Shown here: in pieces, positions 8,572 through 13,981 of the stretch | How positions within the stretch are numbered: the stretch's first letter is position 1 | How the letters are laid out: each line of letters starts with the position of its first letter | Origin: Gammaproteobacteria bacterium | GTDB lineage: Bacteria; Pseudomonadota; Gammaproteobacteria; Ga0077536 | Direction of reading: 5' to 3' | Assembly (NCBI GenBank): GCA_009692265.1 | Contig: SHZM01000015.1 | Location: forward strand, 1-60,452 | DNA length: 60,452 nucleotides | The notes under the pieces: generated by a model | What the model saw: the letters and a program-made list of their open reading frames with translations, nothing else | Told to the model about the DNA's origin: nothing | Databases searched by the model: none | Program-made: the position numbers and the translations under genes

Positions 8572-8844
8572 ATGAATATATATGTTGGCAATTTAGCCTA
8601 TGGTGTTACCGACGACGATCTGCGTCATGCTTTCTCCGCTTCCGGCGAAGTCTCAAGCGCATCCATCATCATGGACAAGATGTCGGGCGAATCGAAAGGT
8701 TTCGGTTTTGTTGAAATGCCTAATCAGGCGCAAGCCGAAGCGGCCATCAAGGCGCTTAACGAGCAGCCCCTCAAGGGCCGCAACATGCGAGTGAACGAAG
8801 CACGGCCGCGCGAAGCGCGTCCACCGCGTCGTAACTCGTACTAA
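8572..8844 (+). CDS. RRM-type RNA-binding protein (RNP family)
   Basis: A 90-residue single RNA-recognition-motif protein. RNP2 is IYVGNL (residues 3-8) and RNP1 is KGFGFVEM (42-49), with aromatic residues placed to stack on RNA. A short Arg/Pro-rich tail (about 77-90) follows. Bacterial members are abundant RNA chaperones, often cold-inducible. The gene is monocistronic: it follows a long AT-rich leader and is closed by a strong intrinsic terminator 22 bases after the stop. No strong Shine-Dalgarno is visible upstream of the ATG. Confidence 0.92.
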   Translation: MNIYVGNLAYGVTDDDLRHAFSASGEVSSASIIMDKMSGESKGFGFVEMPNQAQAEAAIKALNEQPLKGRNMRVNEARPREARPPRRNSY

Positions 8845-8866
8845 ACTCTCCTAACGAGTTGATCAA

Positions 8867-8897
8867 GGTCGCCCTTTCGCGGGCGACCCTTTTTTTG
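8867..8897 (+). terminator. Strong intrinsic terminator after RRM gene
   Basis: An 8-bp GC-rich stem (GGTCGCCC pairing with GGGCGACC) with a short TTTCGC loop is followed by a run of seven T residues. It directly follows the RRM gene and separates it from the convergent SelW-like gene. Confidence 0.9.
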
Positions 8898-8917
8898 TCC
8901 GGTCTGCATCGTAGCGG

Positions 8918-9136
8918 TCAGCCACTGGCGCAGGCATCAAGTTCCGGGTCGCTAGGGAAGCGGCCAGTGCGCCGTTTGGAGTAGCGGAGCTGTCCATCGA
9001 CGGTAACCTCGAACACACCGCCTGAACCTGGGGTCAACGAAATCTCGGTGACACCAACCGCTCTGAACCTATCCCTCGCACGGAGGGCTTGGGGTTCGTA
9101 ATTTCACTGCATGCAGTATTCGATTTCGATTTTCAT
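8918..9136 (-). CDS. SelW-like selenoprotein (Rdx family), Sec at UGA codon 11
   Basis: A 72-residue reading frame on the minus strand, interrupted only by a TGA at 9104-9106 (codon 11). Reading this as selenocysteine gives the motif C8-M-Q-U11 directly after a KIEIEYC beta strand, exactly where the SelW/Rdx family has its CxxU or CxxC redox motif. Downstream of the TGA the family pattern continues: a helix, then GSGGVFEV, VDG, YSK and TGRFP. A GGAGG Shine-Dalgarno sits 4 bases before the ATG at 9136. A small hairpin 16 bases after the UGA fits a bacterial SECIS. Rdx proteins are small thioredoxin-like redox proteins of the cytoplasm. A recent nonsense mutation is the alternative, but its exact placement at the redox position argues against it. 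Confidence 0.85.
9073..9087 (-). promoter_or_regulatory. Putative bacterial SECIS hairpin of SelW-like gene
   Basis: On the minus strand, 16 bases after the UGA, CCCTC pairs with GAGGG (5 bp) around a CGTGC loop whose second base is G. The distance from UGA to the apical loop is 21 bases. Known bacterial SECIS elements lie within the coding sequence just after the UGA with a G among the first loop bases, so this fits. Folding was done by eye. Confidence 0.6.
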
Positions 9137-9229
9137 TCATCCTCCAGAATCTTGACGACCGCGCTCGCGGTATAGCTTCGAACTTTTGCCGGCTTACGTA
9201 TACTGCGAAGATTCCCTCGGAGGCAACTC

Positions 9230-10486
9230 ATGCGTTGTGAAATCGTTGCGATCGGCACCGAATTATTACTCGGGCAAATAACCGATACGAACTCGTCATG
9301 GATCGGGGAACAACTTGCCCTAGCCGGGATCGATTCCTATTTTCAGGTGAAAGTGGGCGATAACCTTGAGCGGATGATCGACTGCATCCAGCACGCGTTG
9401 GCGCGCAGCGACGCGGTGATTACCTGTGGCGGGCTTGGCCCGACCCAGGACGACATCACCCGTGAAGCGCTCGCGCGGATTATGGGCGTGGGCGTGGAGC
9501 GGGATGCGGCGATCGCGACCCGAATCCGCCACATGTTTGAATCCCGTGGCCGCGAAATGTCGGCGAATAATCTACTGCAGGCCGATGTCCCGATCGGGGC
9601 GACTCCCATGGCGCAGATGCCCGGCACGGCACCCGGTCTGGTGTGCCCGCTCGGCGACAAAGTGATCTACGCCGTGCCCGGCGTGCCGAGTGAAATGCGC
9701 GAGATGATGCAGGGCACGATTCTGCCCGATCTTAAACGCCGCGCAGGCGTCAATTCGGTAATCAGGAGCCGTGTGCTACGGACATGGGGCCATTCGGAAT
9801 CCGGGCTCGCGGAAATACTGGCGGAACGCCTGCGGGAGCTGGATCGCAGCAAACGCGCGACGTTGGCATTTCAAGCGAGCGGGATAGAGGGGATCAAAGT
9901 TCGAATTACCGCGAAGGCTGATAGCGATACGGCAGTGATGCTGATCATCGACGAAGAAGAGCAGCAGGTTCGCGAGCTATTGAGCACCTATATTTTTGGC
10001 ACTGACGAGCAGACGATGGAATCCGTCGTGCTTGAGTGCTTGCGTTTGAAGGGGTTGAGTATCGCCGTCGCTGAAACCGTCACCGGCGGGCTTATCAGTA
10101 CGCGCTTGAGTGCCACAAAGAACGCCCGCGAAGTATTCCGTGGCAGTGTCATCGTGAACGATCCGGAAACACAGGAACGAGTGCTGGGGGTGGCTGGTGC
10201 CATTCCGAGTCTCGAACTTACCGCGGCATTAGCGCAAGCCGTTCGCCGCGAATTCGGTGCCGATGTCGGGATCGCGAGCACCGGTATCGATACTTCAATG
10301 CCGAGCGCGGACCTTCGTCCCGGGACAGTGTTTCTCGCGCTTTCGTTGGGAGATGAGTGCGTGACCGAGCGGATCCGACTGCCAGGCGATCCCGAACGAG
10401 TGCGCGAGTACTCGGTGATCAGTTTGTTGAATTTTCTACGGCGACGGCTGAATCTAGAAACCTTGCCAGACCGCTCGCCTTCGTGA
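9230..10486 (+). CDS. cinA: CinA family protein (MoCF domain plus C-terminal amidohydrolase-like domain)
   Basis: A 418-residue two-domain protein. The N-terminal MoeA/MogA-like domain begins with IGTELLLGQ and has GGLGPTQDD (67-75) and the PGVPSEM motif (150-156); in CinA proteins it acts on nucleotide substrates. The C-terminal domain resembles nicotinamide-nucleotide amidohydrolase (PncC), used in pyridine-nucleotide salvage. Its catalytic motif is normally AESCTGG but here reads AETVTGG (281-287), so the usual catalytic Ser is replaced by Thr and activity may be altered. The ATG at 9230 follows a GGAGG Shine-Dalgarno. Length is normal. Confidence 0.88.
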   Translation: MRCEIVAIGTELLLGQITDTNSSWIGEQLALAGIDSYFQVKVGDNLERMIDCIQHALARSDAVITCGGLGPTQDDITREALARIMGVGVERDAAIATRIRHMFESRGREMSANNLLQADVPIGATPMAQMPGTAPGLVCPLGDKVIYAVPGVPSEMREMMQGTILPDLKRRAGVNSVIRSRVLRTWGHSESGLAEILAERLRELDRSKRATLAFQASGIEGIKVRITAKADSDTAVMLIIDEEEQQVRELLSTYIFGTDEQTMESVVLECLRLKGLSIAVAETVTGGLISTRLSATKNAREVFRGSVIVNDPETQERVLGVAGAIPSLELTAALAQAVRREFGADVGIASTGIDTSMPSADLRPGTVFLALSLGDECVTERIRLPGDPERVREYSVISLLNFLRRRLNLETLPDRSPS

Positions 10487-13423: not shown

Positions 13424-13981
13424 GTGCTTAGAATCAGCAAGGTGCCTTTCGAGCAAGTGCACCCCGATTTACAGAAAACCATGCAGGAAAGTGATGCCGC
13501 GCTCGGCGGCTCGGAATGGATCCAGGTGTTTGCACAAACCCCGGATCTCTACCGCCACTTCGTCAAATTCTATTATGAACACATCATGGCCGACGCCGAC
13601 GGCATCACTATCAAGATGACCGAGCTTGTGCGGCACAAAGTCGCGCAAATCAACGAATGCAGTTTGTGAATGAAAGCCATGTATGCTTCGGCGAAGTGTC
13701 AGGGTTTAACTGAAGAGATGGTGCGAGCGCTGCCGAAATTTCGGGACAGCGAGTTGTTTACGCCGGCCGAAAAGGCGGCGCTGAAGTTTGCCGAGGTGAT
13801 GGCTGGTGATCATCGCTCGGTGTCGCAAGAACTGTTCGATGAACTCCGCAGCCACTACAGTGAGCGACAGATCATGGCGCTCGGCTGGCGCATGGCGATT
13901 TTCGTCGGTTATGGACGGTTGGTTTATGCGACGGGCCTCGAGAGTGTCGGCGATCTTTGCCCGTTGTCGTTTACGCACTAA
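13424..13981 (+). CDS. AhpD-like (carboxymuconolactone decarboxylase family) selenoprotein, Sec at codon 82
   Basis: Two abutting frames are separated only by the TGA at 13667-13669 and together make a 185-residue AhpD-like peroxidase-type protein. Reading UGA as selenocysteine gives C79-S-L-U82 in VAQINECSLU, the position of the family CxxC redox pair (usual form AQINGCxxC). The sequence after it (GLTEEMV, ELFTPAEKAALKFAE) is the normal continuation of the same domain. Translation starts at GTG 13424, preceded by a near-perfect Shine-Dalgarno (AAGGAGGTGA, 13410-13419). A 7-bp hairpin with a GGC loop lies 13 bases after the UGA. Likely a thiol/selenol peroxidase or disulfide reductase of the cytoplasm. 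A nonsense mutation is the alternative. Confidence 0.87.
13683..13699 (+). promoter_or_regulatory. Putative bacterial SECIS hairpin of AhpD-like gene
   Basis: Thirteen bases after the UGA, ATGCTTC (13683-13689) pairs with GAAGTGT (13693-13699), including two G-U pairs, around a GGC loop. The distance from UGA to the loop is 20 bases and the first loop base is G. Both match the known bacterial SECIS layout. Folding was done by eye. Confidence 0.65.

Follow-up and report, generated by a model that had tools for sequence, protein, structure and literature searches.

We found that the minus-strand gene at positions 8918-9136 of the window (the whole 60,452-nucleotide stretch of gammaproteobacterial DNA analysed here) is in all probability, which we put at roughly 0.96, a working gene for a selenoprotein of the bacterial SelW-like (Rdx) family. 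This reading draws on the content of the genome and on the conservation of the gene in relatives. SelW-like selenoproteins with a CxxU motif have long been known. What is new is this member itself, called selW below, together with a recurrent cinA-selW pair in its taxonomic family; the kind of gene is well known. The gene was correctly recognised from the sequence alone in an earlier note, and it is very probably a genuine SelW gene which standard gene calling overlooks, since one of its UGA codons stands for selenocysteine and not for a stop. The features of the window discussed here are the following.

8918-9136, minus strand: selW-like selenoprotein gene, CxxU (C8, U11), from the frame, profiles and relatives
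9104-9106, minus strand: UGA codon 11, putative selenocysteine, with TGA at this codon in 26 of the 26 family loci read by codon
9141-9145, minus strand: Shine-Dalgarno-like GGAGG, by direct reading
9065-9097, minus strand: bacterial SECIS-type hairpin, apical and outer stem, from folding, alignment and codon choice
9230-10486, plus strand: cinA (MoCF_biosynth, KH and CinA domains), divergent neighbour of selW, from domain matches
13424-13981, plus strand: AhpD/CMD-family UGA-type gene, C79-S-L-U82, with its UGA at 13667-13669

The earlier note had described a 72-residue minus-strand frame with an in-frame TGA at codon 11, preceded by a GGAGG Shine-Dalgarno sequence and encoding a SelW-like protein with a CxxU motif and the Rdx-family tail (GSGGVFEV, VDG, TGRFP), and each of these elements was found. 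The frame runs from 9136 down to 8921, with codon 11 at 9106-9104 and its own stop, TGA, at 8920-8918; GGAGG, read directly at 9145-9141, lies 4 nt 5' of the ATG. The product is MKIEIEYCMQ-U-NYEPQALRARDRFRAVGVTEISLTPGSGGVFEVTVDGQLRYSKRRTGRFPSDPELDACASG, with C8-M-Q-U11 near the N-terminus and all three tail segments in the translation. When the UGA residue was entered as C in profile searches, the Pfam Rdx match (PF10262) spanned the UGA, covering residues 2-66 at 59.5 bits (cut-off 22.6, E 3.9e-16), and NCBIfam TIGR02174 (SelT/SelW/SelH) gave 52.3 bits against a cut-off of 34.2. The best single NCBIfam model by bits is NF041051 (SelTWH_Campy), yet its 79.2 bits fall below the model cut-off of 88, and for this reason the product is not filed under it. 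Both CxxU columns are invariant in a 22-sequence alignment in which UGA was read as C. Solved Rdx proteins (2fa8, 3dex, 2oka, 2ojl, 2p0g and mouse SelW, 2npb) are related to the product over about residues 2-66, a likeness of sequence only, with E from 1.3e-10 (2fa8) to 0.0017 (2npb). The coding signal of selW in a codon-usage scan of the window is weak; a promoter scan of 8850-9300 found none, and Rfam gave no match on the whole window at the gathering threshold.

The hairpin that had been proposed 16 bases after the UGA, with a G in its loop, was also confirmed. It begins exactly 16 nt 3' of the UGA and reads CCCUC-CGUGC-GAGGG, with the apical stem at 9087-9083/9077-9073 and the loop CGUGC, which contains the G, at 9082-9078; an outer stem, 9097-9093/9069-9065, also forms. 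Thus selW has what is looked for in a bacterial SECIS, a hairpin just 3' of the UGA with a G in the apical loop. The RNA 3' of the UGA has a minimum free energy of -14.1 kcal/mol (z -2.37), a value matched by 4 of 200 shuffles. The analyses of covariation and of codon choice each took 19 of the family's 26 rows, after near-identical ones had been removed by eye; 18 rows are common to both sets, L042 being only in the covariation set and L033 only in the codon set. Across the 19 sequences of the covariation set, the apical stem CCCUC/GAGGG is paired in 94.7% of cells and the outer stem in 57.9%, and the true register is 76.3% paired versus 29-49% for all slides. The apical loop of the family rows is CGUGC, or CGUGU or CGGGU in some. 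Covariation in the hairpin is not above that of shuffles (the score was reached by 79 of 500 and the paired cells by 43 of 500) because the stem, nearly invariant, hardly varies.

Codon choice is a stronger SECIS sign than pair covariation. Among the family rows, which are related, Leu18 in the hairpin is CTC in 19 of 19, Arg19 is CGT in 17 of 19 and Ala20 is GCG in all 12 rows having Ala. Arg21 is AGG or AGA in all 18 rows having Arg; these two codons make up 5% of the Arg codons in the long open frames of the window, which are the only source of our codon frequencies. Just outside the hairpin, two codons after Arg21, all six Arg codons occur at Arg23 in nine sequences, and five Leu codons occur at Leu24 in 17. 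As the hairpin codons are nearly frozen and Arg23 and Leu24 are free, selection appears to act on the RNA at the selW hairpin.

We searched for SelW in 96 genomes, own genome included, 36 of them from the same taxonomic family and 60 from other families, and obtained matches at 32 places in 31 genomes. Within the family a match was present in 26 of the 36 genomes (own included), at 27 places, and every one of these places has exactly one in-frame stop, a TGA. Codon-by-codon reading of 30 of the 32 places gave TGA at position 11 in 26, all of them family loci, and TGC or TGT in the other four. The earlier note had counted decay of the frame at other places in relatives as evidence against the gene and had suggested a search for Cys-containing orthologs. 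No family match is broken elsewhere, and Cys forms do exist, outside the family: the five SelW places in the other 60 genomes are free of in-frame stops, the four of them that were read have CxxC, and none of these five genomes has SelB over the cut-off. These Cys-type places thus come from genomes that appear to lack the Sec machinery, and they belong to other families, not to close orthologs.

A fresh pseudogene, decayed or nonsense-mutated from a Cys-type SelW, would likewise show one in-frame stop in so short a gene, and Cys forms of SelW are available in other families. We nevertheless rejected a pseudogene, together with a one-base sequencing error, as hardly credible: the same TGA codon without other damage occurs in 26 loci, no other stop is seen in 27 places, the hairpin codons are conserved and the genome encodes Sec machinery. 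Functional decoding of codon 11 as selenocysteine is the reading that we retain.

SelB exceeds the cut-off in 29 of the 36 genomes of the family and in one of the 60 others. In the family, 21 genomes have both SelW and SelB, five SelW only, eight SelB only and two neither. Two of the five SelW-bearing genomes (out of 26) without SelB over the cut-off, G015 and G032, hold SelB-like pieces at separate places; the other three, G026, G034 and G035 (81-87% complete), have SelB matches only of the size seen in SelB-free genomes. Because in eight genomes of the family SelB exceeds the cut-off and SelW gives no match, SelW may be dispensable. A scan of GTDB genomes with short patterns taken from the query, which does not give an unbiased rate, showed TGA at codon 11 in 79 and TGT in one of the best 80 of 87 relatives, some of which (L049-L051) coincide with records of family genomes. 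Three of the 79 TGA relatives also have TGA at codon 8.

The genome bearing the window (118 contigs totalling 3.41 Mb, with a completeness of 95%) contains the Sec machinery that the earlier note had advised looking for. One strand of contig C4 carries a cluster of selA (PF03841, 515 bits), selB (424 bits), whose product has SelB beta-barrel and winged-helix domains, and a tRNASec with a UCA anticodon. SelD makes up the C-terminal portion of a fusion protein of 742 residues, which begins with a pyridine-nucleotide oxidoreductase domain and has no in-frame stop; Ndh-SelD fusions are already known (PMC2398784). With SelA, SelB, tRNASec and SelD, the genome has the set by which a bacterial Sec system is recognised. 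In addition, a UGA-containing match to the AhpC/TSA family (L214, W-U-GC) ends about 0.6 kb upstream of the SelD fusion (L016, positions 280-2508 of contig C42), on the same contig and strand.

Full-length products require UGA to be read both in selW and at 13667, as would also happen if UGA had changed its meaning throughout the genome, or if a near-cognate tRNA read through it, with no Sec involved. This is extremely improbable, however, and genome-wide reassignment was rejected: selW itself stops at UGA, the same codon serves as an ordinary stop elsewhere, ending 20 of the 42 long frames of the window, and tRNASec with its UCA anticodon, SelA and SelB all exist. We think instead that SelB would bring Sec-tRNASec(UCA) to codon 11 of selW because of the SECIS hairpin within the coding sequence, 16 nt further downstream, and that the UGA at codon 73 would end the protein. 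Use of selenocysteine in this organism, considered likely in the earlier note, is supported by the Sec machinery, by the conserved UGA of selW and by the UGA-type AhpD-like neighbour.

This neighbour, reported at a distance of 4.3 kb, starts 4.29 kb from selW, at 13424; it is of the UGA type and its close homologues keep the UGA. Its product reads ...NEC-S-L-U-MKAMYASAK..., sharing the CxxU motif (C79, U82) of AhpD-like/CMD selenoproteins, and it matches the CMD family (PF02627) at 41.1 bits (cut-off 23). It differs from those proteins in that it matched six NCBIfam models and reached the cut-off of none, which makes it a divergent member. In a codon-usage scan of the window for UGA-interrupted genes it was, judging the list ourselves, the sole convincing case. 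When 40 genomes were searched, the UGA was kept in all six nearest homologues (L130-L135, 70-91% identical) and also in L137, L138, L139, L140, L157 and L158; L138 has a second TGA, and L139 is a partial match without the first Cys. The two sides of the AhpD-like hairpin stem change in step, being CUUC/GAAG in the window and L133 versus CCUC/GAGG in L130-L132, L134 and L135, a change accompanied, on direct reading, by Lys to Arg. By folding energy alone, this hairpin does not stand out (z -1.23; 23 of 200 shuffles did as well).

One genome of the family, G013, is 100% complete and has neither SelB over the cut-off nor a SelW match, and its AhpD-like protein L136 (C11, 164664-165206) carries C-R-L-C at the motif. 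We rejected L136 as an ortholog of the window gene: it shares 48% identity with that gene but 54-63% with the UGA-type L137, L138, L140, L157 and L158, which form a sister subgroup, and L136 is thus a Cys member of the latter. As its nearest relatives compared are of the UGA type, L136 could possibly be a natural example of Sec-to-Cys replacement, in a genome that may have lost Sec.

Further UGA-type genes were found in the genome bearing the window when four groups were searched. A second CMD gene of this type (L177, C4:4722-5306, ...NSCHY-U-IPTH...) lies beside selA, so that UGA occurs in two of nine CMD places; PF00578 has 12 places, three with UGA (TGG-U, W-U-PFC and W-U-GC), SelW one of one, and the molybdopterin family none of five. 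The UGA-type redox genes thus number at least six and come from three Pfam families; four of them are additional to selW and the AhpD-like gene. By coordinates, a UGA-type AhpD/CMD match is also found near selB in G001, G002 and G004.

As for function, the selW product is expected to belong with the small redox proteins of the thioredoxin-like Rdx family, its C-x-x-U active site lying close to the N-terminus. By analogy with the family, it would most likely act as a thiol/selenol oxidoreductase through a reversible C8-U11 selenenylsulfide. We consider it unlikely that the selenoprotein has a role other than thiol-disulfide exchange, such as selenium or metal storage or delivery, or partnership with CinA in NAD-linked metabolism. 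Such a role would fit the fact that reviews, in their accessible parts, assign no function to bacterial SelW-like proteins, and that cinA adjoins selW in the window and in 9 of 18 family loci. However, the two C-x-x-U positions are invariant in the alignment (with C for UGA), and the CxxC of the four out-of-family loci, in genomes without SelB over the cut-off, is as expected of a redox pair. Thus, thiol/selenol exchange remains our preferred function.

The 18 loci are those of the 27 family places whose flanks were examined. In seven of them, from five genera (L166-L168, L170, L172, L174, L175), cinA immediately precedes selW in the same orientation, overlapping it by up to 4 nt or lying 7-41 nt away; in two it is divergent, as in the window, where a small RRM gene (8572-8844) is convergent with selW on the other side. 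No cinA was found beside selW in the remaining nine of the 18, some of which end at contig ends. Among the best 80 of 87 selW loci of the GTDB scan, cinA is present in three, the same records as family loci, and in none of the 77 others. The pair is a lead on function, not proof of a shared role. It is tempting to propose that in this family SelW works with CinA, an NMN deamidase, and that the two genes presumably once formed one operon, have been neighbours since and are now divergent in two loci. We regard this proposal as distinctly doubtful. Were it true, bacterial SelW would gain a specific partner, and a selenol redox switch would be linked to NAD recycling. A literature search found no paper pairing CinA with SelW, and one on cinA and selenoproteins in operons gave a paper on bifidobacterial stress genes. 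The cinA-selW pair offers a lead, open to experiment, on what bacterial SelW does.

In comparison with known bacterial SelW-like proteins (PF10262, TIGR02174), selW has the same CxxU, the same GGVFEV...DG...SK...GRFP tail and a SECIS-type hairpin after the UGA. No difference is visible in the protein; what differs here is the gammaproteobacterial host family and the position of the gene next to cinA. The SelW-like family is listed as CxxU in PMC2398784, and the prokaryotic family as CxxU with one Sec in the table of a 2026 review (PMC13188914). SelW-like CxxU proteins rank with the most widespread selenoproteins of bacteria (PMC2398784, PMC13188914); in ocean samples they and SelD are described as the most widespread (PMC2398784). 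In a 2006 survey table, gammaproteobacteria outside the Vibrionales and Pasteurellales have one selenoprotein family (PMC1794560). Gene calling in which every UGA is a stop drops or truncates such genes, and environmental gammaproteobacterial selenoproteins may therefore be undercounted.

We also observed SelW genes of Verrucomicrobia in which both active-site codons are UGA (UxxU; L079, L086, L104, L192-L195, L199). In the order of G096, SelW matched in 18 of 141 genomes, and five of these 18 have TGA at both codons; adding L086 and L104 gives seven UxxU genomes, the genome of L192 being that of L079. SelB is over the cut-off in four of the seven (G096, G098, G190, G121) and not in G097, G199 and G219, for which completeness is not given. 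A literature search for a double selenoprotein in connection with NCBIfam found none, and one for SelW selenoproteins of Verrucomicrobia gave a paper on bowel disease. UxxU SELENOW has been reported from amphioxus and Ostreococcus (PMC7539508). Finally, one SelW-like frame, L208 in G110, contains one TGA, two TAG and three TAA codons and looks decayed.
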